Positions 7,134-45,674 of a stretch of DNA of 47,485 nt are shown piece by piece. Each line of letters begins with the position of its first letter. Within the stretch, counting starts at the first letter, position 1. The translations under genes and the position numbers were made by a program. Source of the DNA: Candidatus Krumholzibacteriota bacterium (lineage in GTDB: Bacteria > Krumholzibacteriota > Krumholzibacteriia > Krumholzibacteriales > Krumholzibacteriaceae); NCBI GenBank assembly GCA_030609325.1, contig JAUWCL010000026.1, positions 1 through 47,485 on the forward strand, written 5' to 3'. Below the pieces are notes generated by a model. It was not told where the DNA came from and ran no database searches. It saw only the letters and a program-made list of their open reading frames with translations.

Positions 7134-10100
7134 CTACCTGAGAAGAACCATCTTCTTCATGTTCTCATAGTTGTCGCCGGCATTGATCTTGTAAAAGTAA
7201 ACACCGGAAGCAACGCTCGTCCCGAGATTGTTCGATCCATCCCAGGTAAGATCATGAGAACCAGCGTCCATGACGCCATCCTGCATCGTCTTCACCAGCT
7301 GTCCAGCCACGTTGTAGATCTTCAGGCTCACGTGACCCTTGACGGGCAGCGTGAACTTGATCGTTGTTGTCGGGTTGAACGGGTTGGGGAAGTTCTGCGC
7401 AAGGCTGTACACCTTCGGGATCTCGGTGCCAGTGTAGTCTATACTGGTACTGTTCTCGAAGAAGTCGTACGTCATCTTGAGGAACTCGTTCCTCGCGAGC
7501 GTACCGAGCCCCGTGTCGCGGATAGCCATGAAGCTGTGTCCGACCCAGACGGTCCTGAGCGGCATGCTGGCGCTGTTCAGCTGGTCCGTGTAGATACCAG
7601 CGTAGTACTGCAGGCTGTTGTAGTCAGGATACTGCAGTGCGTACAGGCCGGGGCCGGTCTTCTCGAGAACGTCGAAGGCGTTGATGATCGGACAGCCGCC
7701 GAAGGCGTAGTAGGACAGGCCGTTGTACGGACCGCTGATATCACCAGTGACAAGGGGAGTTACCGTACCGCCGGCCACGCGGCCGCCGGTCATGTTGTAG
7801 TAACTGTTGTCAACGAGCGTGACACCGCAGATCGTGCTGACGAGCTGGACAGCGACGGCAGCAGCGGAATGCGAGAGGTCGTAGGCGACCTGGTCGCCCA
7901 TGACAAGGAGTCCGACCCTATGCTCGGAAATCAGCATCCAGTCTACGAGCAGCTGGGCATCGTTCGACTTGTCGGAGCTCTCGGTACCCTCGGTGATCGT
8001 CACCGAGTTGAGATCGCCGGAGTCGTGGATGACCTTCTCGTATGCGTAGCAGAAGATCGACGATGCGTCCCTGGCCGAAACGTATGCGCCTATGCCGTTG
8101 CCGACACCGGAGGACGGTCCGTTGGTGTCGTACCTGTCGGGCAGAGGCTCACCGGTTGCGGTGACGGCCTCGAACGTCGGATCAAAGTACTGCTGTACCT
8201 GTCCGATGAAGCTGCCACGGTTGTGGAAATCGTCGCAGTACAGAACGCCCGGGACAATCCTCAGGGTCGGCAGACAGGTGAACTCATGGCTTTCGCCTGG
8301 GTTCGTTTCCTCGGCCGAAGACGGGTAGGTCGAGGCGTCACCGAAGAGATCCCATGCCTTGAAGTAGTACTCGATCATGTACCCGCGCGTAAAGAGCGAG
8401 TCGTTGAGATCGATGCAGTACTTGTCGGGCGCGATGTTGCCGGCCGCAGTGGCGGCAGGCTCGCACAGCAGGATCGTCCAGTCACCGTCGTCGCTTACGT
8501 ACGAACCGTAAGTACCCGCAAGCTGCGAACCGTAGAGGTCGGGCTTCTCGCCGACGGGGCCGATGAAGTGGACGTTGCAGTGGAAGTAGACCCTCGCTTC
8601 ACCGGTGGCCAGGGTGTCCAGGCCGCCGGCGAGAGGAGCCGCACAGGTCACGACGGCGGAGTCGCCCGGATCGATACGGTCGAACTCATCGTTAGCGGCG
8701 ATGTCGTTCGCCATATCGGCGCGGCAGTACTCTTCCATCGGGTTCGCGCTGGCCTCTACTTCCTGAGGGAACGTATCCTGGAAGAGATCCAGGTTACGTA
8801 CGCTCCAGGACGGGCCGACCGTCTTGTAACGGTAGACACGGATGTTGTCCAGCCACGGCGAAGGCGTATGGGCCGCGCAGTCGCCGTAGACACCGTACCA
8901 GGCGTCGCACATGTCGGAGACACCGACATTGACCTGTATCGGCAGAGGGCCGACGAGGTCGGAGATGTCCTGGTTGATGCGGATGTAATCCTTGTCTCCA
9001 CCGTAGTAGACGAAGTTACGATCCATCCACTGACCCGGGCAGCCGGCTTCAATGCTGCGGACTGACCAGGTGTAGAACACGAGGTTCGACAGCGGAAGGT
9101 CACGGTAAGCGATGATTTTCAGGACAGCGCCGCCGAGCTGCGCAGCGTCGGCGGGCGGAATCTGGGCGTCCTGGACCTCGTCACGTGCCGTGGAGTAATC
9201 CATCATGCTTATAACGGGAGAAAGGACCATCTCGTTCTGGCATGGAGCCTCAATTCCACCGGGGCCTGTGCAGAAAGGAGTATCGAACAGGCCGGGATAA
9301 TCGGCGCTCGGGTAAGACGACCCGTTGAAAAAGACGATCTGGGTGCCGAAGTTGTCACCGCAGGGATCCTTGTCAACGAGGTTGTTCGCCAGACCGCCAT
9401 AGGCGCCGAAGGCTGTTTCGATAGCCGTGTGCCAGATACCGAGGGTTCCCGTGGCTCCGTCAGCATAGCTCTCGAAATCCTCGAAATCGATCACGCCGCC
9501 GGCGTCGGTCACCGTGATATTGTCGACGATGAAGGCACCGTCGGTATCCCAGAGACCGTCCTGGTCGGACCAGGCGCCGTCAGAGATGAAGTGATAACGA
9601 AGCTTGGTGGCAGCCTGGGTAAGGAGAAGCTGCTCGACGACGTCCAGCGTATCGGTGCCGTCGTATTTAGCGATCTCCACCCAGTTGTCGTCACCGGCGT
9701 CGTACTCGATGTACGTGAAGTCCCAGTCGGGCTCCGAATCGACGACGCACTTGAAGGACCAGGTCAGGATGCCCGTAAAGGGGATGACATCCGAGTAACA
9801 GATCTGGTTCCAGCTGTTACCGTAACCAGGAGCGTTGAACCACGAGCAGAGGTAGAAATCGGTGCCCGGAGGGGTACCGCACCACAGTGACTTTGTTCCT
9901 TCGAGAGGATAGAGGCGGTCGAAACTACCGCCACCCAACCCGGCGAAATCGTCAACGTGGAAAAACACATCTACCTGAGCCGTGTTGTCGATGCTCGTCC
10001 AGCCCTGCCAGTCCATCTGCTCGAAATCGTACCAGACGAGACAGAAGGTATCAGCAGCAGCTGCAGCCATGAGGGTCTGGAGACCCGAATCGATGAGAGC

Positions 10101-10223
10101 AGGGTTCTCCTCAATGGCCATCATGACACGCTTGCCGCTTCTGTCGATATCGCGCGCCGACACGGAACCGACGAACAGGGCAAGGAGGCAAACGCCCAGT
10201 AATACTACTAAGGCTTTCCTCAT
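7134..10223 (-). CDS. 1029-aa secreted protein with type A sorting-like tail
   Basis: A signal peptide (MRKALVVLLGVCLLALFVGS, cut near VSA) opens the protein. Most of the body is beta-rich with many Asp, Gly and aromatic residues (for example DICADA-like segments around WYDFEQMDWQGW), and it may include laminin-G or jelly-roll-like modules. The end is a textbook FCB C-terminal domain: YSLAQNFPNPFNPTTTIKF, VSLKIYNVAGQLVKTM, LTWDGSNNLG, VASGVYFYKI, KKMVLLR. The family is known to be exported and surface attached in species with type IX secretion. The gene stands alone with its own promoter (10264-10292) and terminator (7070-7097), which suggests an abundant, separately regulated surface protein. 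SD is a G6 run 8 nt before the ATG. Substrate and function are unknown. Confidence 0.9.
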   Translation of the reverse strand: MRKALVVLLGVCLLALFVGSVSARDIDRSGKRVMMAIEENPALIDSGLQTLMAAAAADTFCLVWYDFEQMDWQGWTSIDNTAQVDVFFHVDDFAGLGGGSFDRLYPLEGTKSLWCGTPPGTDFYLCSWFNAPGYGNSWNQICYSDVIPFTGILTWSFKCVVDSEPDWDFTYIEYDAGDDNWVEIAKYDGTDTLDVVEQLLLTQAATKLRYHFISDGAWSDQDGLWDTDGAFIVDNITVTDAGGVIDFEDFESYADGATGTLGIWHTAIETAFGAYGGLANNLVDKDPCGDNFGTQIVFFNGSSYPSADYPGLFDTPFCTGPGGIEAPCQNEMVLSPVISMMDYSTARDEVQDAQIPPADAAQLGGAVLKIIAYRDLPLSNLVFYTWSVRSIEAGCPGQWMDRNFVYYGGDKDYIRINQDISDLVGPLPIQVNVGVSDMCDAWYGVYGDCAAHTPSPWLDNIRVYRYKTVGPSWSVRNLDLFQDTFPQEVEASANPMEEYCRADMANDIAANDEFDRIDPGDSAVVTCAAPLAGGLDTLATGEARVYFHCNVHFIGPVGEKPDLYGSQLAGTYGSYVSDDGDWTILLCEPAATAAGNIAPDKYCIDLNDSLFTRGYMIEYYFKAWDLFGDASTYPSSAEETNPGESHEFTCLPTLRIVPGVLYCDDFHNRGSFIGQVQQYFDPTFEAVTATGEPLPDRYDTNGPSSGVGNGIGAYVSARDASSIFCYAYEKVIHDSGDLNSVTITEGTESSDKSNDAQLLVDWMLISEHRVGLLVMGDQVAYDLSHSAAAVAVQLVSTICGVTLVDNSYYNMTGGRVAGGTVTPLVTGDISGPYNGLSYYAFGGCPIINAFDVLEKTGPGLYALQYPDYNSLQYYAGIYTDQLNSASMPLRTVWVGHSFMAIRDTGLGTLARNEFLKMTYDFFENSTSIDYTGTEIPKVYSLAQNFPNPFNPTTTIKFTLPVKGHVSLKIYNVAGQLVKTMQDGVMDAGSHDLTWDGSNNLGTSVASGVYFYKINAGDNYENMKKMVLLR

Positions 10224-32463: not shown

Positions 32464-33222
32464 TTGAGCAATACAGTATACTTTCTTTCGGACACACATT
32501 TCAAGTATCATACAAAGGACCCGCGTGAAAAGAGAAAGCGGGCCCTCTTCCGCGATTTTCTCGGATCGATAGCGGGCGCGTCGCGCCTGTACCTCGTCGG
32601 AGACATATTCGATTTCTGGTTCGAGTACCGAAGCGTCATTCCCAGGTTTTACGGCGACGTCCTCGAGGCAATCGGCAGGCTTGCCGAAAGCGGGACAGAG
32701 ATCTTCATCACCGGCGGCAACCACGACCACTGGTTCGGCTCCTTCCTCCCCGAAATGCTCGGGATCAAGGTTCTTCCCGGAACGGCGATCCATGATATCC
32801 AGGGACACAGGGTGATAATAACCCACGGTGACACCCTTCTGCCCGGCGATTACGGGTACAAGACACTGAAGGCGCTGATACTGAGCCGTCCCGTGGTGGC
32901 CTTCGCGAAGCTCCTTCATCCCGACCTGCTCTACGCCTTCGCCGCTGCCTTCTCGAGGACGAGCAAGGGGCTTACTCACGGCAAGACCGAGGCGTGCGCC
33001 GACAGGTTGACCGACATGGCCAGGAAGACTTTCTTCAACGAGGGTAATGACGCCTTCGTGATGGGTCACGTTCACCTGCCTCGCCTCCGGAACTTCGCCG
33101 GAAAAACGTTTATAATACTCGGCGACTGGGAGACGCATTTCTCCTACGCCCGCCTTGAAGATGGCCGGTTCACCCTGAAGAGTTATCAGAGCGAAGGTGA
33201 TACGGTAAGCGAGAACCTGTGA
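32464..33222 (+). CDS. LpxH-like UDP-2,3-diacylglucosamine diphosphatase
   Basis: This 252-aa calcineurin-like phosphoesterase probably cleaves UDP-2,3-diacylglucosamine in lipid A synthesis. The metal-binding motifs are complete: FLSDTHF (D-x-H), VGDIFDFWFEY (GD), GGNHDHW (GNHD), ITHGD and MGHVHLP. The start is a TTG at 32464 with GGGGAG 8 nt before it; the frame is open from 32398 but that start has no SD. The C-terminus overlaps the end of the convergent PorV-like gene by 37 nt. The exact lpx assignment (LpxH vs a paralogue) is not settled. Confidence 0.85.
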   Translation: MSNTVYFLSDTHFKYHTKDPREKRKRALFRDFLGSIAGASRLYLVGDIFDFWFEYRSVIPRFYGDVLEAIGRLAESGTEIFITGGNHDHWFGSFLPEMLGIKVLPGTAIHDIQGHRVIITHGDTLLPGDYGYKTLKALILSRPVVAFAKLLHPDLLYAFAAAFSRTSKGLTHGKTEACADRLTDMARKTFFNEGNDAFVMGHVHLPRLRNFAGKTFIILGDWETHFSYARLEDGRFTLKSYQSEGDTVSENL

Positions 33223-34106
33223 GCATCGCCCAGGTCGTAGTCGATCGGCATGTGGGCATAATCAAACCTCAGGCTCTTCCATACGATGCCGACACCCATG
33301 GTGGCGCCCTGGACGTCATATCCGCTCTTGTAACCGAACCTCAGCATCAGCAGCCTCTGGTACGCGTACTCGAGGCCGAAGTGCGTCCTGGCATCGTTGT
33401 CGTTCGGGAAGACGACGTCAGCGGCGAGGATGAGCCCGCCGCGCAGGACCTCTCTTTTCATCTCGTAGGCGCCGCCGAGCCTGAGCTGGAAGGGAGGATA
33501 GAACTTTTCCTCGACGAAACTCGTCTGGGGGCCGAGGTTCAGCATCGCCGCAGCGAGAACAAGACCCTCGATCTTTGTTATGTGGGTCACGCCCAGATCG
33601 AACGCGTACCCGGTGGCCGACTCGAAATCAATCTTCGAATAGATGATCTTGAACGCCGCTCCGAGCGCGACATTGGGGATGATGTCCCTGGCGTAGCCAA
33701 GAGACAGCGCCAGGTCGTAGGGCGAGAAAGTCCCGTCCGGTGTAAGCGACGGGTACTCGCCGTACCTGTCGAGGCTGCCGTAGTAGAGGCCGGTGAAGCT
33801 GAGCCCCACCGCTCCTCCCCACATCTCGTTCACCACGGCGGCCTGCTCAAACCTGATGTCCATCAGCCACTCGTTATGCGTGAGATTGAGCTCGACTTCC
33901 TCGACAGCCGCCATTCCTGCCGGGTTCCAGTAGATGCTGGTCGCATCGTCCGCTACGGCGGTGAAGGCCTCACCCATCCCGCCGGCCCTCGCTCCGTTTC
34001 CCAGCCTGAGAAACGTGAAGCCCGATGAGCCCGGCTCGCCTGCCGAGGCGAAGACGGTCGTGACGATCAGCAGCGCCGCGGCCAGCGGGACTGTGTAGCG
34101 GGACAT
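33186..34106 (-). CDS. PorV/UPF0164-like outer-membrane beta-barrel protein
   Basis: This 306-aa FadL-fold protein has a signal peptide (about 1-23 from the ATG at 34106) and the family blocks SGFTFLRLGNGARAGGMGEA, FTAVADDATSIYWNPAGMAA, and a C-terminal strand end RFSLTVSPSL. In Bacteroidota, PorV/PorQ proteins work in the type IX attachment complex. The ATG at 34106 is preferred to those at 34121 and 34133 because it has GGAGG 4 nt before it and the promoter at 34136-34164 starts transcription near 34129. The last 37 nt overlap the LpxH-like gene on the other strand. It sits beside the M6-type protein with a sorting tail, which fits a cargo-shuttle pair; this is inference. Confidence 0.85.
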   Translation of the reverse strand: MSRYTVPLAAALLIVTTVFASAGEPGSSGFTFLRLGNGARAGGMGEAFTAVADDATSIYWNPAGMAAVEEVELNLTHNEWLMDIRFEQAAVVNEMWGGAVGLSFTGLYYGSLDRYGEYPSLTPDGTFSPYDLALSLGYARDIIPNVALGAAFKIIYSKIDFESATGYAFDLGVTHITKIEGLVLAAAMLNLGPQTSFVEEKFYPPFQLRLGGAYEMKREVLRGGLILAADVVFPNDNDARTHFGLEYAYQRLLMLRFGYKSGYDVQGATMGVGIVWKSLRFDYAHMPIDYDLGDAHRFSLTVSPSL

Positions 34107-34135
34107 CTTTCCTCCATTCATTGTCATCTCCATAT

Positions 34136-34164
34136 ATTTTAGTATACAACACCGCCCGGGTCAA
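34136..34164 (-). promoter_or_regulatory. Promoter of the PorV-like gene
   Basis: The minus strand has TTGACC (34159-34164), a 17-bp spacer and TAAAAT (34136-34141), five of six matches in each box. The start would be near 34129. An inverted repeat GCCCGGG / CCCGGGC overlaps the -35 region, without a T-run. Confidence 0.75.
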
Positions 34165-34200
34165 CATCAACGCCTGCAGGCTCCCGGGCCTCATATATTC

Positions 34201-37200
34201 CTATTTCAGTATCGCGACCTTCCTCGAACCGTTCCAGTCATCGCCCCCGCCCCGTACGCGCACGTGGCAGAGATAGACCCCGCTGGCGAGCCCTCCGGTC
34301 GGCACGTTCGCCTCGAATGGCACGCCGCTGCCGGTCCACTCGTGCTTCGTGGTAGAGGAATAGACCTCCGTACCCTCGAGGTTAAAGAGCCTGACGGTCA
34401 CATCAGCCCGCCCCGACAGGTTCAGCCGGAGATTGAAGGAGTTTCCAGTCGCGGGATTTGGATAGCATATCATCGAGCTCCCATCGACGAGAGGCCCGCC
34501 GGCGATGCCGCCCTCGGGCTTCACCTGCCTGCAGGTGCCGCGCGCGTCCATGCGGTATGCGGGCCAGGCTCCCGCGTCGTCCCACGGACTCCCCGGATCG
34601 ATCCTCGTCACGGTCGAGACTCCCGGAAAGAAGTTCATTCCCACCTGGTCGGGACCGGCTATCCCGCCCGAGCCCCCGGCGGTGAATATGAACATCTTCG
34701 AGCCGGCGCCCCGGGAAAGGGCGGGCGTGATCGAATGATCACCCTCGCCGCGCAGCGGCCAGCCCTCCTCGAGCCGGGCGTCGTATCGATAAGCCCCCAG
34801 CTCGCCGGCGACATTGAAGACCACTTCGAGCTTTCCGTCCCCGTCGATGTCCGCAGCCGCCGGCTGGGCCGGCGTCGTATCTGGCTCGAGTATCACGAGA
34901 CGTTCCTCGAGACGTACCGGCCATCCGGTTACCGGCGTGCCGAATCCCGTCAGCAGGAACAGTCCTTCTCGATCGCGTATCAGCGTCTCAAGTATCCCGT
35001 CTCCGTCGATGTCGGCCAGAGACGGCGGAGAGGGCCGTTCGAGCGTCACGGTAGAGACCTCGGCGCCCCTCATGATATCGATGTAGACGAGATCGCCTCC
35101 GGGGACCGCCAGGACCATGTCGTCCGTCCCGTTGCCGTCGATATCGCCGGAGGCGGGCAGAAGCATGTCTTCCGATTCGTAACTCCCCGTCATGCTCCAG
35201 GAAGTGATGTTCATGTCTGGAGCATCGTGCTTCATTTCGATATAAATAAATCTCAGTGCGCCTTCCGGCCCCGCGGCCGCGGTGCAGAAGCCGCCGGCAG
35301 CGGCGCTGCCTGCATCGACGCAGAGAACCGGGTGGGCGATCACCCTCCCGGGAGTGATAATCACTCCGAGCACTCCCTCGCCGACAATGAATCCACCCTG
35401 TATACCGTCAGCGTATGCGTAACCCACGAGATACATCCAGGTCGTATCTCTGTCCGAGACGAGAAACGCGACCTCGAGGCCGGCGTCTCCGTCAGCCTCG
35501 AAAGCCATCGGCATGCTCACGATCTCTCCCTTGACATCGAGTGAGCCCGGCGATGGGCCGGTGTCGATCGGATACGGCGAGCCGTCCGTCCGGTACGCAT
35601 GAATCCTCCCGTCACGCGAGCCGGCCAGTATCACCAGATGTGGCATGCCGTCGAGATCCGCCGCTATCGGCGTCCCCGACCAGGCCGCTCCCGGAATATT
35701 GACTATCAGATCGAACGAGCCGTCCCACGCTTCCTCGCCGGCATCCCATGCTATGTATATCATACCCGTGTCGGCAGCCTGTATGAGCTCCTCTTCCGGG
35801 TCTCCGTCGAGCTGAGCGACGACCGGAGGCAGGTTCATCACCGTCCCGTCGATCTCGCCGGTCACGCGGGGAAGTTCCTCGCCGAACTCGATCGAGATCT
35901 CCATTACCGGTCCAGGGACCGATCCGGTCCCAATGACCAGTCCGGTCGGTGTTCCCGTGTTGGCAAAGCTCGCCGGTATCGTTTCAGGTCCGAACTGCGG
36001 ATACCAGCCGTCGCGGTACGAATCTCCCCAGCTGCCGAAGGCATGGCTTCCGCCCGGCCGGTCGAGGTCCTGTACGCCGTCGGCCTCCTCGAGGTCGACG
36101 CCGCTGACGCCGGGATCGTCATTGGGATAACGGCCGATGCTCAGGCGGCTCCTTATTATCGTCTCGTCTATGTGCCAGATCATGATGCCGCTGCCGGTAT
36201 CGACGATCTTGACCTGCTCGCCGCCGATATCTTCGTGATGGAACGGGTTGGTCGTCGCTGTGAGGAAGAAGTCGAACTCCGCTCCGAGCAGGGTGTCCTC
36301 GTTCTCGGGGATGTGGAGGCTGTCGACGTTGACGTCGCCGAAATCGAAACGGCCGTTCATGTTCCCGTCGTGCACCCTGTTGGAGACGAGAAAATACTCA
36401 GTGGGGCTTATCTCGATCTTCACGAGCGACGTATCCGCCGGCAAGGATGTGTTGATATCGGTGACGTTCACCTGCCCGTCAGCTTCGACCTCGACCGGCG
36501 CCGTCCATCCCATCAGGTACCTGTGGAAGGCGCAGGGAAAGGCCGGAATGAAGCCGGCGGCGTTGTAGAGGCCGTATCCCATCAGGCCGAACGCACCTAT
36601 CCCCTGCGAATCGGGATAGCCGGAAGGCGTCGTGTCGTACATCGGGATCATCCCGAGCCTCATCCCTACCTGGTAGGCGTAGATCCCGAGGGATCCGAAT
36701 ACTTTGCCGTCCTGCGAGGCGTTCTCAGGCAGGACCATCACGTTGTCGACGTAGAAAATGTACGGGCCGATCATGTCGTTCGTCGGGATTCCGGGCGTTC
36801 CGAGGGTGTCGGCCAGAACGGCTTCCATCTCGGCCGGATCAATAAAGCCCGACCAGAGCTGCCACGACGAGTCACCGATAAAGTCGGTCTCCTGTCCCGG
36901 ACCGGGATGTATCAGCGCGAATGCGTCGTACCGTGAGAAATCGATCACGTCGTCGTTCTTCGCCACCGCCTCCATGAGGATCTCCGACACCCTCTCCTCC
37001 CAGAGGTCATCCTCGCCGTAATATGCCGCGTCGAAACTGAGCATCGTGACACCTGCCGCGATCTCCCATCCGAGACCGAACGCCCCCAGGGAGGCTCCAC
37101 TGAAATACTCCCAGGTGTGCCTCAGCTCATTGGCAAAATAGAGTGAATCGTGCGGCGGCGAGGTGAAATCCATGTCTGTGTACGATACTCTTATCACGAG

Positions 37201-37398
37201 GAGTTCGAGGGTATCGGGCGCGTCAAAGCTTCCGGCAAGCAGCCCGGAGAGCGCCATCTGCTGGTAGACGCCGGCCGGACGCCCCTTCGGCATGGCCGGT
37301 ATACCGGCCACGTCCGGCTCCGCGGCGAACGCGCCGGATAAAGTTGCCGCCGCGAGTGCGGCGGCGAATATCCTTATGACCGATGCAGGCATACGCAT
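34201..37398 (-). CDS. M6-type metalloprotease homologue with lost zinc motif, VCBS repeats and sorting tail
   Basis: A 1065-aa secreted protein (signal about 1-25) with an M6-protease-like catalytic region (about 40-470). Homologues in this group have a HExxH motif before a GxPxxYD segment; here the site reads YAYQVGMRLGMIPMYD (about residues 239-254), so His-Glu-x-x-His has become Tyr-Gln-x-x-Met. The neighbouring signatures remain: GIGAFGLMGYGLYN, AFHRYLMGWTAPVEV and SGIMIWHIDETII. VCBS/FG-GAP repeats follow (520-930: DIDGNGTDDMVLAVPG, ADIDGDGILETLI, AADIDGDGKLEVVF). A FlgD-like tail ends the protein (VRLFNLEGTEVYS, GLASGVYLCHVRV). It is probably an inactive surface protein. It has its own promoter at 37408-37436 and starts almost at the transcript start. 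Confidence 0.85.
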   Translation of the reverse strand: MRMPASVIRIFAAALAAATLSGAFAAEPDVAGIPAMPKGRPAGVYQQMALSGLLAGSFDAPDTLELLVIRVSYTDMDFTSPPHDSLYFANELRHTWEYFSGASLGAFGLGWEIAAGVTMLSFDAAYYGEDDLWEERVSEILMEAVAKNDDVIDFSRYDAFALIHPGPGQETDFIGDSSWQLWSGFIDPAEMEAVLADTLGTPGIPTNDMIGPYIFYVDNVMVLPENASQDGKVFGSLGIYAYQVGMRLGMIPMYDTTPSGYPDSQGIGAFGLMGYGLYNAAGFIPAFPCAFHRYLMGWTAPVEVEADGQVNVTDINTSLPADTSLVKIEISPTEYFLVSNRVHDGNMNGRFDFGDVNVDSLHIPENEDTLLGAEFDFFLTATTNPFHHEDIGGEQVKIVDTGSGIMIWHIDETIIRSRLSIGRYPNDDPGVSGVDLEEADGVQDLDRPGGSHAFGSWGDSYRDGWYPQFGPETIPASFANTGTPTGLVIGTGSVPGPVMEISIEFGEELPRVTGEIDGTVMNLPPVVAQLDGDPEEELIQAADTGMIYIAWDAGEEAWDGSFDLIVNIPGAAWSGTPIAADLDGMPHLVILAGSRDGRIHAYRTDGSPYPIDTGPSPGSLDVKGEIVSMPMAFEADGDAGLEVAFLVSDRDTTWMYLVGYAYADGIQGGFIVGEGVLGVIITPGRVIAHPVLCVDAGSAAAGGFCTAAAGPEGALRFIYIEMKHDAPDMNITSWSMTGSYESEDMLLPASGDIDGNGTDDMVLAVPGGDLVYIDIMRGAEVSTVTLERPSPPSLADIDGDGILETLIRDREGLFLLTGFGTPVTGWPVRLEERLVILEPDTTPAQPAAADIDGDGKLEVVFNVAGELGAYRYDARLEEGWPLRGEGDHSITPALSRGAGSKMFIFTAGGSGGIAGPDQVGMNFFPGVSTVTRIDPGSPWDDAGAWPAYRMDARGTCRQVKPEGGIAGGPLVDGSSMICYPNPATGNSFNLRLNLSGRADVTVRLFNLEGTEVYSSTTKHEWTGSGVPFEANVPTGGLASGVYLCHVRVRGGGDDWNGSRKVAILK

Positions 37399-37565: not shown

Positions 37566-38570
37566 TTAAGGTAAGGTGTTCTGCCGCTGCAGGATCCTAT
37601 CATCGTCCTGTTTACCCGATCTGTTCGTCGGGGGGACTCGTCGACCTTTCGGAAAACCTTTCATTTTCTTTATTCCACCGGTCTCTTCGGAACCGGACGT
37701 CAGCGTGATATTCACATCATCCTCGTCGCCTGCCGGCCCGGGCATCAGGTCCCTGTTGCCGGGATCGGTCTGATACGCCCACCAGAAGTCCGCGTAACCG
37801 TCGGCGACCGTGTGCACCCAGAGCTTCACATAGTGGACACCCTCGGACTCGCCGAGCCGAAGTATGTAACAATGGCTCTCGATTACTTCGGCCGATCCGG
37901 CGGATGACCATCCCAGCTCGGGAGCAAGATTGATATCGTCGAAACTGTATGTATACCCGTAGTCCTGTATCATCACTCTCGGCATCTCGACCCGGAAGAA
38001 GTTCACAGCAATGGTCGTATCGAACTCGATGTCTGTCGACGGCAGCGAGCAGTCCTGCGCGATGTTGCTCTGCGATGAGAAATCGTACCCGCAGGCATCG
38101 GAATCGGCCGCCGCGTCGTAGAGTCTCAGGAATCCTTCCGGCCTGGGCGTCGCACTGACCTCCTCGTAGCTCAGCTCACTGAGGTTGTCGTCCTGGTCAT
38201 AAGCGGATACCGCGTAATAGAACTGATCGCCGTAGGTAGGATCGCCGTATTCGAAACAGTACTCATAAGGGTCGGGATCCTCCGCGTAGACAGTTCCTAT
38301 ATAATCATAGGTCCCATAGAGCTCGTCGTTCTTCCATATGTCGTAACCCACGATGTCGTCCTCGGGGTTCGGATACCAGCATATCAGCACATAGCCATCG
38401 AGGTTGACCGCGTAGACGCCGCGAGGTGCCGAGGGAGAGCACGCTGGACACTCCCTCGGCAAATACACGATCTGTTCCTCCTGGTCACAGGAGGAAATGA
38501 ACGCAAAACTCGCGATCAGGATTGCTGCTAATACCGTTGATGCTTTATGTGTCCCTCCTGCTCTCATCAT
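37566..38570 (-). CDS. Fibronectin-like lipoprotein
   Basis: The product is about 334 aa from the ATG at 38570 (one codon before another ATG); the frame is open to 38609. It has a lipobox FISSC at the end of the hydrophobic segment, a fibronectin-like module (YVLICWYPNPEDDIVGYDIW, FYYAVSAYDQDDNLSELSYE), a beta-rich second domain, and a basic C-terminal tail. No SD is seen before either ATG, so the start is uncertain. It belongs to the same surface protein class as the proteins at 2622-6896 but has no sorting tail. It ends at the terminator 37454-37519. Function unknown. Confidence 0.75.
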   Translation of the reverse strand: MMRAGGTHKASTVLAAILIASFAFISSCDQEEQIVYLPRECPACSPSAPRGVYAVNLDGYVLICWYPNPEDDIVGYDIWKNDELYGTYDYIGTVYAEDPDPYEYCFEYGDPTYGDQFYYAVSAYDQDDNLSELSYEEVSATPRPEGFLRLYDAAADSDACGYDFSSQSNIAQDCSLPSTDIEFDTTIAVNFFRVEMPRVMIQDYGYTYSFDDINLAPELGWSSAGSAEVIESHCYILRLGESEGVHYVKLWVHTVADGYADFWWAYQTDPGNRDLMPGPAGDEDDVNITLTSGSEETGGIKKMKGFPKGRRVPPTNRSGKQDDDRILQRQNTLP

Positions 38571-39115
38571 GTCGACATATAAACGCAACTGGCGTGCCAT
38601 GCCTGCCATACACCTGAAAAATGGATCGATTTAACAGTCACTGACAGCGGATTTTGTTAAACGGCAAGTTGTTAAAACTATGTGACGGATCCGGCACCGG
38701 ACCGTAGGAAAGAACCGAAGAGGCCTGAGATTACAGAAAAATGTCGTCTCTATTCCACACATTTGTCCACGAAAGGGGACAGGGCATGAAGGATGCGGGG
38801 AACACGCGGCACGGCCTTCTCGGTCAGAGGTCCAGTCTGCAGGGAGTCATCGTGGCCTGTGCGGATAAGAATATCCAGAGACACAGGACTCGACCTCACA
38901 GTGGGGGAGCTCCATCCAGTCTATGGAGATTGCTTTTTACACAAAAACGCCAGGGGCACAAGACGCGAGCACCGGAGGGGATGTCCATACTCGCAATCCT
39001 ATGGATCTCGCCATTCCTCTAGGTATCTCATACCCCTGACAATTAATTATAAATACACAGGGCTACTTGAAGTCAAGATTAAATTGCATGGGTATAAATT
39101 CAAGGGGGAAAAATT

Positions 39116-39217
39116 ACCGGAGAGATGACCAAGATTTCATTCCCTAGAGACCCCACCTGTACCCTATTTCAAGCTTCAAGAGAGCTTATGGGATCGAAAT
39201 CTCTGCATCTCTCCGGT
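39116..39217. other. 102-nt long imperfect hairpin (candidate structured RNA)
   Basis: ACCGGAGAGATG (39116-39127) pairs perfectly with CATCTCTCCGGT (39206-39217). Inside, AGATTTC (39132-39138) pairs with GAAATCT (39196-39202), then TCCC (39141-39144) with GGGA (39190-39193), and AAGCT (39171-39175) with AGCTT (39183-39187) forms a terminal hairpin. The internal loops are small and near-symmetric except for a 26-nt strand. The plus strand continues TTTT and the minus strand continues AATTTTT, so either could be a transcript with a terminator-like end. I do not recognise the family. Confidence 0.55.
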
Positions 39218-39330
39218 TTTGCCACTTCCCATTCGCCAACCGATACCGGAAATATCAAAGGGCAAGCACCGTTCCAAAACCGGCGATAGGCCCGTTTATG
39301 CACACATGCCATAAAACATTTATATTCATT

Positions 39331-39463
39331 GCGTTACAAAACCGTACTTTCAAGGTAAATCTTATGTCCCGCGATGTTCACAAGCGCGGAATAAAGACCC
39401 TTTACACATCCCGCGGTCCTGCCGTAACGCGCTGCCCGACAACACCTTGAAATATCAATGTAC
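39331..39463. other. Crossing inverted repeats (pseudoknot-like topology)
   Basis: GCGTTAC (39331-39337) pairs with GTAACGC (39424-39430), and TTTCAAGGT (39348-39356) pairs with ACCTTGAAA (39444-39452). The pairs cross, as in a pseudoknot. A GTAC at 39344-39347 may extend the second stem to GTAC at 39460-39463 across a 7-nt bulge. A CCGCG / CGCGG hairpin lies between. Pair lengths of 7 and 9 could occur by chance in 130 nt, so the evidence is moderate. Confidence 0.35.
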
Positions 39464-39634: not shown

Positions 39635-42600
39635 CTACTGGACTATCCCGTAGTCGCGAATCTTCTTGAGAAGTGTCGGATAGCTGATGCCCAGGTCGGC
39701 CGCGGCCGCCTTCCTGTTCCAGTCGTTTCTTCCGAGGACCTCTTCGACTATCCTTTTCTCGAGGTCCCTGACCATGTCGGGCAGGGTCTCGGACGAATCG
39801 ATCACCTCGTCCCGGTTTCCGGCGAGGTCGAAGACGAGCTGCTGCGGGGTGATCACGCCGTTGTCCTCGGCGAGGATGACCGCGCGCTTGATTATCTTGC
39901 CGAGTTCCCTGACGTTGCCGGGCCATTCGCATCCCTTAAGGAACTCTATCGCATCGTCGCTGAACCCGATGATCTCCTTGTCCATCGCGGAGCAGCAGGT
40001 TCGCAGGTAGTGGTTCGCCAGAGTAGGAATGTCCCCTCTACGCTCGCGCAGCGGCGGAATCGTCAGCGGAAAATCATTGATCCTGTAGTAGAAGTCCTCG
40101 AGCATCTTTCCCTCGCTGCAGAGCTGCAGCAGATCCACCTTGGATGCAAAGATCAGCCTGACATCGACCTCGATCATCTCGTTGCTGCCAACCGGTCGTA
40201 CCTTCCTCGTGTCGAGGAACTGGAGAAGCTTGCCCTGTATCGGGAGCGGAGCCTTCCCGATCTCGTCGAGGAATATCGTTCCGCCGTCCGCTTCGGCGAG
40301 CAACCCCTTCTTGTCTGCGATGGCCCCTGTGAAGGATCCCTTCATGTGGCCGAAGAGCTCGCTCTCGAGGATCATCTCGGGAAGCGCAGCACAGTTCACA
40401 TGAATGTATTTCTTTCCGCTCTTTCTGCTCATGTCGTGGATGGCCTGGGCCACGAGACCTTTGCCCGTTCCCGTCTCCCCCATGAGCAGGACGGTGGAAT
40501 CGCTTACCGCGACCTTGCCTGCAAGCTTGAGGATCCTCAGCATCTTCTCGTCGTTAGTGATGATCCCGCTGAAGCCGCTGTCGGTAGACACCTTTCCACC
40601 CTGCACGAGCATTGCGCCCTTGACCGATCCCTTTATAAGGAAATCGATGAACCCTGCGTAGGTCGATACGATCTCGAAGATCGACCCGACGGCCGGTACT
40701 CCCTCACTCCCCTCGGACTGGAAAAACAGGAGCCCGAAGTTCCTGCCTCCCTTGCTGAGAGGATGGAAGTACGCGGGAGAAGCGCCACCCGGGAGCTGTT
40801 CGAATATCTCCCTGACGCGCCTGTCTTTCACCGTGTCCGTGACGAGGAATTTCTCTGCCGTGCCGGCGGCGTCGCGGGCGAGGAACCATTCGGTGATCCT
40901 TCTCGTCTTTTTGTCCCCGATCCCGCGGCGGGCAAGCACTACAGGATTGCTTCCGTTTCCGTCGGTCAGAGCGACGAATCCGTGGCCTGCGGAGAGTTTT
41001 CTCATCAGGTCGCTGAGGATGTAATCGAGATACGACTTCAGCTGCGGATCGTGCATGAACGTCCCGTCCAGGCCCCCGGACTGACCGAAGTCCTTTCCCG
41101 GCACTCCATGCGAACCGGCCGCTGCGTCCTCGATCTTCCTGCGCATCCGGCGCAGGCGCCTTATGAGATTGCGGTCGTGTAGCTCCTCAGCAAGCCGCTG
41201 CGCGTCGAAGAGGTGCAACAGACACTCGTCCCTGTTGCCGAGAATGTCCTCTATCCTCGTCAGAAGGAAATGGCTTCCCGCCAGGTCGGCGTACTCCTCG
41301 TTCCTCTCGAAGAACGACACAGTCTCACTGACAAGTTTCCTCGCCATCACGGCCGACCTCCTGTCGCCCCTGCGGAGCAGGTGCTCGCCGAGGATGACCC
41401 CCGACCTGTGCGCCTCGTAGGGATTGTTGACCGACAGGAAGGTCATGATGCTCATGTTTATCTGCTTCTCGGCCTCGGTCTCCTTCTTCTGGATAGCAAG
41501 GGCCTGGCCGATCATTCTCTCCACGTAGCCGATCTCGTGCATCTCTCCACTGCGGCGGCATGTCTCGATGGCACGGCGACCGATGGCGAGCGCCTCCCCG
41601 GCCTTTCTCTGAACGAGATATACGTTCATCATCCGGCGCTGTACCTCGGCGACTATATCGCCATGCGGGTTGATCCTCGAGGCGGACTTGAGCGCGACGA
41701 CGTAGTTCTCGAGGGCGTCCTTTAAATCGCCCTTCTCGAACATCAGGTCGCCGATGAACTCGTCGGCGAGAGCGGTCTCTCGTTTGTAGTCCCTCCGTTC
41801 AGCAATGACCCTCGCCTCCAGCAGGTGCTTCTCTGCCGACAGCAGGTTCCCAGCCATCGTCTCCTTGATGCCGAGCATCAGTGTGGATTTGGTGTACTTC
41901 AGATCATCGCCGATACGCCTGGCCATATCCCTGGCCGTGGCGAATGCACTCTCCGCGCCGGCGAAGTCGCGCTTCTTCAGGTGCACAATACCCATGTTGA
42001 GCGTCACTCGGACCCTATGCTGGGTCAGACCGATCTCGTCGCATATCTCCAGGGCCCTGCCGAGGAACTGAAGCGCCCTGCCCCAGCGGCACGCGTTTTT
42101 GTGGAACAGCCCGAGGTTGTTGAGGACGTACGCCTCGCCGACCGTGTCCCCGATCCTCCTGTAGGAGGAAAGGGCGTCGAGGAAATACTGCTCGGCCTCG
42201 TCGCTGCGTCCCAGCCTGGCGTAGCAGTTTGCGATGAGGAGCTGCGTGTGGGCGACCTCGCGGTGCTCGTCGCTCGTGCGCAGTATCCTGTAAGCCGAAC
42301 AGGCCTCCCTGAGACCGCGCTTGATGTCGCCCCTCTCGTACAGGATGATCCCGCGACGGCAGGCGATCGTGCCCTTGTCGATCAGGTTTTCGTCCTCGCA
42401 GTGGGTCGCCGCGCTGTCGAGGAAGGACATCGCCTCTCGCAGAAGCCCTTTCTTGCGGTAGCAGTCGCTTATCTTGCGGTAGACTCTTACAAGGTCGTTC
42501 GTACCGCCGCCGACGGTCTGGACCTTCTGGAGGGCCTTGTCGTAGTATTCGAGCGCAACCGAGTAGTTCTCGGTCGACAGATGCATGTCGCCGAGCTCCT

Positions 42601-42685
42601 CCTCGGTGCCGGTAGATTTGAACTTGTGCCCCGGCTGGTTTTTTTCGAATTCGAAATTATCTTTACCTTGCGGGCCGTCAGGCAT
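39635..42685 (-). CDS. TPR-GAF-sigma54 activator (enhancer-binding protein)
   Basis: A 1016-aa cytoplasmic regulator that would open sigma54 promoters. Residues about 25-510 are a long helical TPR array (STENYSVALEYYDKALQKVQ; GEAYVLNNLGLFHKNACRWG). A GAF-like sensory domain follows (about 545-700). The AAA+ domain has Walker A GETGTGKG at about 735, GSFTGA at about 781 (Ser instead of the usual Ala), Walker B GGTIFLDEIG, and WPGNVRELGKIIKRAV. A Fis-type HTH closes the protein (NRKAAAADLGISYPTLLKKI). SD AAGGAG is 6 nt before the ATG. The gene begins 58 nt after the small secreted protein gene, likely as one transcript. TPRs in place of a receiver domain suggest peptide or protein sensing; this is inference. 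Confidence 0.93.
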   Translation of the reverse strand: MPDGPQGKDNFEFEKNQPGHKFKSTGTEEELGDMHLSTENYSVALEYYDKALQKVQTVGGGTNDLVRVYRKISDCYRKKGLLREAMSFLDSAATHCEDENLIDKGTIACRRGIILYERGDIKRGLREACSAYRILRTSDEHREVAHTQLLIANCYARLGRSDEAEQYFLDALSSYRRIGDTVGEAYVLNNLGLFHKNACRWGRALQFLGRALEICDEIGLTQHRVRVTLNMGIVHLKKRDFAGAESAFATARDMARRIGDDLKYTKSTLMLGIKETMAGNLLSAEKHLLEARVIAERRDYKRETALADEFIGDLMFEKGDLKDALENYVVALKSASRINPHGDIVAEVQRRMMNVYLVQRKAGEALAIGRRAIETCRRSGEMHEIGYVERMIGQALAIQKKETEAEKQINMSIMTFLSVNNPYEAHRSGVILGEHLLRRGDRRSAVMARKLVSETVSFFERNEEYADLAGSHFLLTRIEDILGNRDECLLHLFDAQRLAEELHDRNLIRRLRRMRRKIEDAAAGSHGVPGKDFGQSGGLDGTFMHDPQLKSYLDYILSDLMRKLSAGHGFVALTDGNGSNPVVLARRGIGDKKTRRITEWFLARDAAGTAEKFLVTDTVKDRRVREIFEQLPGGASPAYFHPLSKGGRNFGLLFFQSEGSEGVPAVGSIFEIVSTYAGFIDFLIKGSVKGAMLVQGGKVSTDSGFSGIITNDEKMLRILKLAGKVAVSDSTVLLMGETGTGKGLVAQAIHDMSRKSGKKYIHVNCAALPEMILESELFGHMKGSFTGAIADKKGLLAEADGGTIFLDEIGKAPLPIQGKLLQFLDTRKVRPVGSNEMIEVDVRLIFASKVDLLQLCSEGKMLEDFYYRINDFPLTIPPLRERRGDIPTLANHYLRTCCSAMDKEIIGFSDDAIEFLKGCEWPGNVRELGKIIKRAVILAEDNGVITPQQLVFDLAGNRDEVIDSSETLPDMVRDLEKRIVEEVLGRNDWNRKAAAADLGISYPTLLKKIRDYGIVQ

Positions 42686-42743
42686 CGGTTACTCCTTGAA
42701 GTGGCAAATGGCGAAATCACCGGTAAAGCCCGTAAGTAGACCG

Positions 42744-43097
42744 CTAGTATTTTGTTCTTACCCCGCCGGATCCGGTTATGTAACCGCCTGGCGAGGTCAA
42801 TCCCGCGCTCCGCTTGTCGCCGACGCCTTCGGGATCGAGAACCTTTCCGTCGTCCCTGCCATTCGCATAATCGTCAGCGTCTCCACGCAGTATCACGTCG
42901 TTTCCGTCATCGCCGATCGTCCTCTCGTCATATCCGAGGTTATGGCGATGGGCTCTCAGAAAGTAGGCAAAATAGTAGGAGAGCCAGTTGGAAACGGTCA
43001 CCGCCTTTTCGCCGGCTATCGGCGAGGCACAGACCTGCGATACTGAAGTGATGGAGAAAGCCACCAGAATGGCAAGAAGAAGAGCCGTTCTCTTCAT
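42744..43097 (-). CDS. Small secreted protein (117 aa), function unknown
   Basis: The true start is the ATG at 43097, with GGAGGAG and AGG upstream; the frame is open to 43181. A signal peptide (MKRTALLLAILVAFSITSVS, cut near CASP) is followed by SNWLSYYFAYFLRAHRHNLG, an Asp/Arg/Gly-rich stretch and a Gly-rich end (LTSPGGYITGSGGVRTKY). The mature chain of about 90 aa is hydrophilic with no Cys pairs. It has its own promoter (43166-43194) and is 58 nt before the TPR-sigma54 activator. It could be a surface or signalling protein. I know no family for it. Confidence 0.7.
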   Translation of the reverse strand: MKRTALLLAILVAFSITSVSQVCASPIAGEKAVTVSNWLSYYFAYFLRAHRHNLGYDERTIGDDGNDVILRGDADDYANGRDDGKVLDPEGVGDKRSAGLTSPGGYITGSGGVRTKY

Positions 43098-43165
43098 GAC
43101 CTTTTCTCCTCCTGGAACTACCCTGTTCCAAAAAGACCCGTCATACCCTGAACACCCACAGGTTA

Positions 43166-43194
43166 AAAATAAGTTCTGCAAGGGCGGCTGTCAA
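43166..43194 (-). promoter_or_regulatory. Promoter of the small secreted protein - TPR regulator pair
   Basis: The minus strand has a perfect TTGACA (43189-43194), 17 bp, TATTTT (43166-43171). The leader is about 60 nt. A TTGCA inside the spacer looks like half a sigma54 box, but the matching GG is absent. Confidence 0.65.
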
Positions 43195-43301
43195 ATTTTT
43201 CATGGAAAAAATCTTTGAAAAAATGAAGTTAACCGATTTGTCAGATTTTTTACAAGATAGATTGCGCTGCGTATAAGATATGTTTCAATAATTACGGATT
43301 C

Positions 43302-44678
43302 TCAGCTTTTCTCGTCCTTGTCGCCGCGCAAATCGATGCTGTACTTCTCGAGCTTCTTGTAGAGGTTGCTGCGCTGCATCTCCAACTGCCGCGCAGTCTT
43401 CGACACGTTGCCGTTGTTCTCGCGCAGCTTCTTGACAAGAAACTCCCTCTCGGTGAAGTCTCTGAACTCCTGGTAAGTCTGCAGCCCGAACGGGTCCTTC
43501 ATCATATCCTCTTCCCTTGTCAACACGAGCGGGGGCATGTCCTCGCGCCTGATCGTGTCAGACAGCGTCAGGATGCAGAGCCTCTCGATGAGGTTTCTCA
43601 GCTCCCTGACGTTTCCCGGCCATGAGTACTCGACCATCATCTCGAGAGCCTTCCTGTCGACCTTTTTCGGTGCGGCCCCAAGCTCGGCCGCGACCTGCTC
43701 GAGGAAGTGGGAGACGAGCATCGGTATGTCCGACCTGCGGTCCCGCAGCGGCGGTATCTCGACCGGAACGACATTCAGCCTGTAGAAGAGGTCCTCCCTG
43801 AAGTTACCCCTTCCCGCCTCATCTAGCAGGTTCTTGTTCGAGGCCGCGATGATCCGCACGTCTACCTTCTTGGTCTCGGTCCCCCCAACCCTCTCGAACA
43901 CGGATTCCTGCAGGACCCGCAGGACCTTCGCTTGGGCGGACAGGCTCATGTCCCCGACCTCGTCGAGAAAGAGCGACCCGCCGTCGGCAAGTTCGAACTT
44001 CCCGATCCTCTTCGATACGGCGCCGGTGAACGACCCCTTCTCATGGCCGAACAGCTCGCTCTCAATCAGCTCCTCCGGGATGGCAGCGCAGTTCACCTCG
44101 ATGAACGGCTCGGAGTTCCTCGTGCTGAGCTCGTGCAGCTTCCTCGCGACGAGCTCCTTGCCCGTACCGTTCTCGCCCGTGACCAGGACCCTCGCGCTGG
44201 TTGGCGCCACGCGCCCGATCGTCTCGAGGATCTCCTTTATCGAAGGATGCTCTCCGATGATCTCGGTACCTCCCGGTATCCGCTCGCGGAGATCGACATT
44301 CTGCTGCCTCAGCTCTCCCTGCTTCAGTCCGTTCCTCACCGTCAGCAGGAGCCTGTCGAGATCTATCGGTTTTTCTATAAAGTCGAACGCGCCGAGCTTG
44401 GTCGCCTCGACGGCGGTGGAGATGTTGCCGTGTCCCGATATTATTATTACCGGCAGCTCTTCCCTCGTCTCCTTGAGCTTCTGCAGCACCTCGAGCCCGT
44501 CCATGCCGGGCATCTTGATGTCGAGCAGGACGATGTCGATACGTTCGTCGGCGACCATCTCGAGGGCAGAAGGGCCGTCGGGCGCCGAGAATGTCTTGTA
44601 CTTCTCGTAGGAGAGGAGTTTCTCGAGCGAGCTCCTTATGCTCGCCTCGTCATCGACTATCAGAACCCTCTTGCTCAT
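43302..44678 (-). CDS. NtrC/NtrX-type sigma54 response regulator
   Basis: A 458-aa response regulator from the ATG at 44678 (a TTG two codons up is in frame). It has a receiver domain (1-120) with acidic pocket D9/D10 and phosphorylation site D53 (VLLDIKMPG), a sigma54 AAA+ domain (about 140-380; Walker A GENGTGKE, GSFTGA, GGSLFLDEVGDM, WPGNVRELRNLIERL) and a Fis-type HTH (NVSKTARQLEMQRSNLYKKL). The receiver-first layout and the C-terminal helix fit NtrX more than NtrC, but I cannot be certain. No histidine kinase gene is adjacent. It overlaps the ppx/gppA gene by 29 nt. Confidence 0.93.
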   Translation of the reverse strand: MSKRVLIVDDEASIRSSLEKLLSYEKYKTFSAPDGPSALEMVADERIDIVLLDIKMPGMDGLEVLQKLKETREELPVIIISGHGNISTAVEATKLGAFDFIEKPIDLDRLLLTVRNGLKQGELRQQNVDLRERIPGGTEIIGEHPSIKEILETIGRVAPTSARVLVTGENGTGKELVARKLHELSTRNSEPFIEVNCAAIPEELIESELFGHEKGSFTGAVSKRIGKFELADGGSLFLDEVGDMSLSAQAKVLRVLQESVFERVGGTETKKVDVRIIAASNKNLLDEAGRGNFREDLFYRLNVVPVEIPPLRDRRSDIPMLVSHFLEQVAAELGAAPKKVDRKALEMMVEYSWPGNVRELRNLIERLCILTLSDTIRREDMPPLVLTREEDMMKDPFGLQTYQEFRDFTEREFLVKKLRENNGNVSKTARQLEMQRSNLYKKLEKYSIDLRGDKDEKS

Positions 44679-45651
44679 CGGCAAGGTACCCCCGTTCTGT
44701 TATTCCGTCACCCAGCACAACGCCCCATCTTAGGTCCCGGGGCGTTATCTTGAAATTTTCCGCCCGCAGGGCACGGGCTGTTCCCTGAACAATCGCCAGA
44801 CCGGGCAGAAGCAACCGGATCCTCTCAGGCGAAAGTAGAAGCATCCTCTCCCTGCCCGAGCGGAAAAGGGCGGTCAGTCTTCTGCCGACCAGGTCCAACT
44901 CGCCGGCCGACATTTCCACAGGTCTCAGACTGTCGTAACATTCCACGCGCATGTGCTTCCACACAATGGCAAGGCTGACGGCCGTCCCGCCGGTAAACAT
45001 GATTGTAGGACTTTCTGCCGTGCCGGGCAAGGGTGAATCCCCCGATGGGATCCCGGCGTTTTCCAGCATACGAGCTATCCGGGAAGATACGTGCCGGGCG
45101 TTTACGCCCGTGGAAGCCCGCACCGTATGTGTCCCGACCGGTATCGACAGGAAGAAGGCCGCCGCCGGCGCGGCGCCCCACGACAATTCGGTACTCGTCC
45201 CGCCCGCATCAGCGAGGATAGCCGGTTCGCCCGCGCGCAGGTCCAGGGTCGCTCCTGCGAATCCCAGGAAGGCCTCTCCTCTCTCCGACAGTACCTTGAC
45301 ATCCACGCCGGTCCGTTTTTCAAGGAGCGTCTTGACCTCGTCGCGGTTGGCCGCCCGGCGCAGCGCGTTGGTGGAAACTACCGTCAGGCGCACATCGCTC
45401 CGGCCCACCATCTCCTCTGAGAGTCTTTCAAGAACATCCGCAGCCCGGCCGGCGGTCAGACGCGAGATAGATCCAGAGGCTGTGATCTCCTCCCCCCACC
45501 CGACATAAATCCTCTCCTGAAAGGAATTCCTGACGCTTGTCCCGTCCCGGCCAAACTCAACGTCAACAGAGAGCATCCTGAAATAACTGCTACCGAGGTC
45601 GATGCAGCACCTCGTTTCCTTTTTCCCTTTTGTCTTCGCGGCCGTATTCAT
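44650..45651 (-). CDS. Ppx/GppA phosphatase family protein
   Basis: The product is about 333 aa from the ATG at 45651. It has the two sugar-kinase-fold motifs: CIDLGSSYFRMLSVD at the N-terminus (about 18) and LADAGGTSTELSWG (near 145), and VVSTNALRRAANRDEV, GEAFLGFAGATLD and FTGGTAVSLAIVW. The family splits polyphosphate or hydrolyses pppGpp to ppGpp. It is shorter than E. coli Ppx (about 500 aa) and lacks the C-terminal HD-like domain. Its start lies 23 nt from the rlmN start on the other strand, so the promoter must lie in or beyond the rlmN 5' end. It is translationally linked to the NtrX-like gene by a 29-nt overlap. Confidence 0.88.
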   Translation of the reverse strand: MNTAAKTKGKKETRCCIDLGSSYFRMLSVDVEFGRDGTSVRNSFQERIYVGWGEEITASGSISRLTAGRAADVLERLSEEMVGRSDVRLTVVSTNALRRAANRDEVKTLLEKRTGVDVKVLSERGEAFLGFAGATLDLRAGEPAILADAGGTSTELSWGAAPAAAFFLSIPVGTHTVRASTGVNARHVSSRIARMLENAGIPSGDSPLPGTAESPTIMFTGGTAVSLAIVWKHMRVECYDSLRPVEMSAGELDLVGRRLTALFRSGRERMLLLSPERIRLLLPGLAIVQGTARALRAENFKITPRDLRWGVVLGDGITERGYLADEQEGSDSR

Positions 45652-45674
45652 TATCATCACATCCGGAAGGAACC

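Follow-up and report, generated by a model that had tools for sequence, protein, structure and literature searches.

Does a small secreted protein encoded directly before a TPR-fused sigma54 activator form a sensing pair with it, or is it an unrelated neighbor? The locus that raises this question lies on a contig assigned to Candidatus Krumholzibacteriota, which we analyzed as one window (the whole stretch of 47,485 nucleotides). The first-pass annotation had described a 117-aa secreted protein with its own promoter, followed after 58 nt by a 1016-aa TPR activator, and had proposed a peptide-sensing pair. The open reading frames, the promoter, and the domain searches all bear out this description, with the regulator start codon at 42685, 58 nt past the small-gene stop.

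42744–43097, minus strand: gene for the small, predicted exported protein, 117 aa (ATG at 43097, stop at 42744).
39635–42685, minus strand: gene for the activator, 1016 aa, in the order TPR, GAF-like, sigma54 AAA+, Fis HTH (open reading frame and domain searches).

The regulator consists of TPRs (residues ~27–524, ~25 helices), a sigma54 AAA+ domain (residues 708–960; PF00158, E = 2e-60), and a Fis-type HTH (residues 972–1012; PF02954, E = 1e-9). Its sequence contains GSFTGA, and with an AAA+ core bearing a GAFTGA-type loop and an HTH it has the features of bacterial enhancer-binding proteins; a sigma54 gene is present in the genome, and promoters of the sigma54 type lie near the regulator. 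Complete orthologues have open frames of 965–1098 aa. The GAF domain named in the first-pass annotation is matched by Pfam in 4 of 13 orthologues, and the model of the window regulator is compatible with GAF, but no Pfam match to GAF was found in the window regulator. The best fold match of the TPR array is to LGN-type peptide-binding TPRs; because TPRs bind many kinds of thing, this match argues weakly for binding of the small protein in the TPR groove. The matched LGN/Pins domains (PDB 4a1s, 3sf4) likewise form a long peptide-binding TPR superhelix, but they belong to eukaryotic cell-polarity proteins and have only the repeat fold in common with the regulator.

The N-terminus of the 117-aa protein is a signal-peptide-like stretch, MKRTALLLAILVAFSITSVSQVCAS, in which a simple rule finds clear n-, h-, and c-regions and whose model has an N-terminal helix. 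An amphipathic helix (residues 28–53), the sequence GDADDYANGR (residues 72–81), and a disordered C-terminus follow. Searches of Pfam and NCBIfam gave no match and no known domain, and AlphaFold predicts helices only, at low confidence (pLDDT 59), with no further fold. The small ORF is under purifying selection (dN/dS of 0.23–0.57 in 11 species pairs) and is therefore a real gene; its rate of evolution is several times that of the regulator (dN/dS of 0.05–0.19). Across Krumholzibacteriota the protein is 97–120 aa long and similarity between families is mostly gone; the sole feature common to all aligned small proteins is the motif GD[APGDE][DGEH], present in 70 of 70 (shuffled mean, 11). The hydrophobic helix stands before the motif in families f1 and f2 and is C-terminal in the other families, where 46 of 48 proteins have a hydrophobic tail (final 15 residues).

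Three elements precede the small gene.

43228–43242, minus strand: conserved element GACAAATCGGTTAAC upstream of the small-gene promoter (family conservation).
43163–43195, minus strand: small-gene promoter, sigma70-like, TTGACA-17-TATTTT (43194–43166), within TTTGACA ... TTATTTTT; position conserved in the family.
43114–43129, minus strand: 5'-leader hairpin just before the small-gene Shine-Dalgarno sequence; its arms change together.

The family-wide form of the promoter is nearer to TTTG..TAnnTTT, which we take to be the FCB-type form. The hairpin arms differ in step across species (GGAAC/GTTCC, GAAGC/GCTTC, and GGAGCC/GGCTCC), and a GU-rich block, GGGTGTTCAGGGTTTGATGGGT, is conserved along with the hairpin in the leader (window 43114–43242). 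No terminator-like site was found between the small gene and the regulator gene. An exported ORF placed 30–200 nt upstream in the same operon without an intervening terminator, and with a hairpin in its leader, would suit a regulatory nascent chain (SecM/VemP-like), in which synthesis or export of the small protein would govern regulator translation in cis and the mature product would have no role. We consider this explanation improbable, as the C-termini are not conserved in f1, where the invariant motif lies ~35 residues from the end, and the gap to the regulator varies from ~20 to 200 nt across loci.

The regulator's sensory half was found in 75 of the 80 genomes of the phylum. At every orthologous regulator locus with upstream DNA (71/71; 41 plus 30 more distinct orthologues, leaving out two contigs that end too early and one locus from a repeat genome), a signal-peptide-like small ORF lies directly upstream on the same strand. 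By the same rule, 2 of 203 background genes in this DNA have such an ORF. In two genomes the regulator occurs twice, the second copies being L101 (in genome G044) and L124, and each of these second copies has its own small protein upstream. A profile search with the small protein gave a single strong match in each genome, and this was invariably at the regulator locus. The pairing of the two genes is no accident. The first-pass annotation had asked if the small protein always adjoins a TPR-sigma54 gene, and it does, in both directions: no small protein was found without the regulator, and the family's regulator was never found without its small neighbor where upstream DNA exists. The pair is part of a syntenic block, rlmN / NtrC – small – TPR-sigma54 – lipoprotein, that is kept through the phylum.

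43302–44678, minus strand: NtrC-type response regulator, the syntenic upstream neighbor (domain search and synteny).

In f1 and f2 a Ppx/GppA phosphatase gene (window 44653–45660) separates rlmN from the NtrC gene; it was not detected at this position in the other families.

A scan of 85,000 species gave a single outlier beyond the phylum, LQ108M_Bin_12, which a published study (PMC9727166) assigns to Orphanbacterota, a phylum in the FCB superphylum. This genome and six relatives, for which the search tool gives no phylum affiliation, each encode 2–5 diverged TPR-sigma54 paralogues. Directly upstream of 25 distinct paralogues, mostly 12–85 nt away, lies a separate gene for a small predicted exported protein of 70–109 aa. 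These proteins fall into motif classes DVDPDG, GDGDIPE, GGGDPDNPVP, and DTDPDDFP, plus a loose fifth class resting on two rows only. On the regulator tree the motif classes form single clades (6 groups with 5 changes, as few as possible, against a mean of 19 in shuffles), and the pairs were therefore duplicated and kept as pairs. We relied on these paralogues rather than on tree similarity within Krumholzibacteriota because the genes of the block there are inherited together and would not discriminate. The first-pass annotation had called for a check of covariation between the partners; among paralogues, motif class tracks receptor clade and matched partners are kept, as one would expect for a receptor and its cognate partner. 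A surface or periplasmic protein merely carried by the operon, with no part in the regulator's mechanism, would agree with the lack of a known domain, and synteny alone could hold such genes together. That account is nonetheless highly improbable to us, given adjacency at 71/71 loci against a 1% background and its persistence in another phylum, where the paralogues have multiplied and the motifs are specific to the receptors.

Two sigma54 promoters lie at conserved places behind the regulator, P1 ~210–475 nt past its stop codon and P2 at the start of the lipoprotein gene. The first-pass annotation had suggested looking for a sigma54 promoter upstream of co-occurring genes; such promoters are present beside these genes, but downstream of the regulator, before a new RNA and the lipoprotein gene.

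39388–39406, minus strand: near-palindrome TGTAAAGGGTCTTTATTCC upstream of P1, a candidate enhancer site.
39261–39276, minus strand: sigma54 promoter P1, TGGAACGGTGCTTGCC; conserved.
39108–39247, minus strand: structured ~140-nt RNA with its own terminator (conservation and covariation); single copy.
38742–38768, minus strand: spaced element GGACA-N6-TGTgGA-N9-GACA upstream of P2, a conserved candidate enhancer site.
38584–38599, minus strand: sigma54 promoter P2, TGGCACGCCAGTTGCG; conserved.
37566–38570, minus strand: lipoprotein gene following P2, with its start moved to a position past the promoter; synteny holds across the phylum.

P1 and P2 carry different upstream elements, and the adjacent NtrC protein may therefore drive one of them. 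Genome-wide, perfect matches to the sigma54 consensus number only three, near the two of a reversed-pattern control, and we set this search aside. The lipoprotein ORF as called (37566–38609) spans P2, and its true start is probably the ATG at 38570; as this ATG lies a few nucleotides past the predicted transcription start, the lipoprotein mRNA would have little or no leader. Two genes whose synteny extends to many f1 genomes lie behind the lipoprotein (33186–37398); one encodes an FG-GAP protein of 1065 aa that bears a Por secretion tail, the other a protein resembling PorV/UPF0164. A further Por-tail protein is encoded at 7134–10223.

The nature of the P2 product bears on a reading in which nothing is sensed outside the cell. 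The small protein would be a sacrificial secretion substrate and, when export (Sec or a downstream outer-membrane step) backs up, its cytosolic precursor would fill the TPR groove and switch the regulator. Such an export or envelope sensor needs no re-import, and it accords with a predicted exported, rapidly evolving protein whose body is disordered apart from an amphipathic helix, as well as with a lipoprotein behind P2 that in f1 is followed by Por-tail genes and a PorV-like protein. The matched motif classes of the paralogues, however, suggest specific rather than generic information, and we regard this reading as rather unlikely.

The RNA is conserved from the predicted P1 transcription start to a closing 12-bp stem that carries a U-run. 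Its parts include an unpaired conserved 5' end (39221–39247) and the invariant AGGTGGGGTCTCT (39146–39158). In the covariation analysis 92% of cells are paired and 16 pairs are changed on both sides, above all 500 shuffles, with slides far lower; fitting the alignment to the structure favors this outcome, but a sequence-only alignment shows the same exchanges. The RNA occurs only at the regulator locus. Rfam covariance models, including Qrr, gave no match to the RNA in the window, in its relatives, or in other families, and on these comparisons the ~140-nt RNA predicted to be driven by sigma54 is undescribed. The P1-linked RNAs of other families differ in length and mostly have GGTGGGG in common. 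The P1 RNA of f5 (L077–L087, downstream of the TPR gene) looks much longer, at ~230 nt, and has its own conserved blocks, UUUCGUGUU..CGGGAGAA and GAGGUGGGGUCU. No conserved site for a P1-type RNA was found in the Orphanbacterota loci.

The 5' end of this RNA is complementary to the regulator's own translation start.

42681–42708, minus strand: regulator ribosome-binding site and start codon, complementary to the RNA 5' end (complementarity tests).

In f1 the unpaired 5' end, GGUAUCGGUUGGCGAAUGGGAAGUGGC, with the seed GGUAUCGGUU, is complementary to the regulator ribosome-binding site and start (AACCGAUGCC and TTTGCCACTTC in the window), and the best duplex site of the window RNA in the 47 kb is the regulator start (best of 2371 sites). 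A different RNA sequence pairs with regulator codons 3–6 in f7 and f8 (UCCCGUGCGU with ACGCACGGGA). When RNAs and targets were swapped group-wise, matched combinations gave z values of −2.84, −2.54, and −2.35 and mismatched ones −0.2 to −1.6; hence, the complementarity follows lineage. Single-locus helix tests in f1 often reach only p 0.01–0.2, and species of f1 show no clear preference for their own target compared with that of a sister (122/210). Complementarity was looked for and not found in f3, f5, and f6. The small-gene leader, considered as another target of the RNA, gave z values near 0 in most species, and we rejected it. In f1, f2, f7, and f8, then, an RNA with a sigma54 promoter is complementary to the translation start of the activator, as in LuxO-Qrr; negative feedback of the LuxO-Qrr kind is likely in these four families and unproven elsewhere.

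On balance we think it somewhat probable that the locus is a dedicated module, in which the small protein is the cognate ligand of the regulator, the regulator opens P1 and P2, and the RNA feeds back. To the observed pairing, coding, synteny, co-duplication, promoters, RNA structure, and complementarity, this reading adds binding and direction, which we infer. The small protein would be made first from the shared transcript and exported; the protein, a fragment of it, or a precursor that stays unexported would occupy the TPR groove and set the regulator's activity. The active regulator, presumably rather than the NtrC protein, would open P1, yielding the ~140-nt RNA, and P2, yielding the surface lipoprotein. 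At least in f1, f2, f7, and f8, the RNA 5' end would pair with the regulator start region and repress translation, closing a negative feedback loop. Extracellular signaling by the exported partner and the sign of the small protein's effect on the regulator are likewise matters that we infer.

Among known systems, the RRNPP pairs of Gram-positive bacteria, such as Rap-Phr, PlcR-PapR, and Rgg-SHP, are defined by a TPR receptor of 250–500 aa and a propeptide of 10–100 aa encoded by neighboring genes, with Sec export of the propeptide and import of the mature peptide, which is bound by the TPRs (PMC10075063). The present pair also combines a TPR receptor with a directly adjacent gene for a small protein that is probably exported by Sec, and in its second phylum each genome has several such pairs, paralogous to one another, whose partners match. 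Its lengths, however, of 1016 aa for the receptor and 117 aa for the small protein of the window, fall outside the RRNPP definition, so that the pair is not RRNPP as defined; any likeness to RRNPP in how it works is at most an analogy. The receptors here are ~1000 aa long, with GAF-like and sigma54 AAA+ domains and a C-terminal Fis HTH, whereas RRNPP receptors have an N-terminal HTH; the partners here are 70–120 aa long with an acidic motif, the hosts are FCB bacteria, and any mature peptide or its import is hypothetical. LuxO-Qrr of Vibrio (PMC3262071) likewise joins a sigma54 activator to a small RNA that pairs with the activator's mRNA; the RNA here is predicted to repress the mRNA of its own activator. 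LuxO, however, is a response regulator rather than a TPR protein, and the RNA here exists in one copy, has no sequence relation to Qrr, and has its gene behind that of the regulator. In CbrB-CrcZ of Pseudomonas an NtrC-family activator drives a sigma54-dependent RNA, as the regulator here would, but CrcZ antagonizes Hfq-Crc, and no self-targeting of cbrB is claimed (PMC8657755). In the open-licence literature we found no description of TPR-sigma54 activators with exported partners.

Pairs of a TPR receptor and an exported peptide encoded next to it have been described as a speciality of Firmicutes, and such pairs are known from Gram-positive bacteria; a separately built version feeding sigma54 promoters would be a second origin of such sensing. 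As a tentative generalization, which we find possible but doubtful, a class of peptide signaling may have evolved independently in Gram-negative FCB bacteria. Its GD-D small proteins would be pheromones or export-gated ligands of TPR-sigma54 receptors, with one core circuit and a feedback RNA throughout Krumholzibacteriota and several parallel channels per cell in Orphanbacterota. In a phylum without genetics, the new RNA would offer a feedback loop that is compact and testable. Kept in nearly every genome of one uncultured phylum and multiplied in another, the pair would be a first handle on the regulation of these bacteria.
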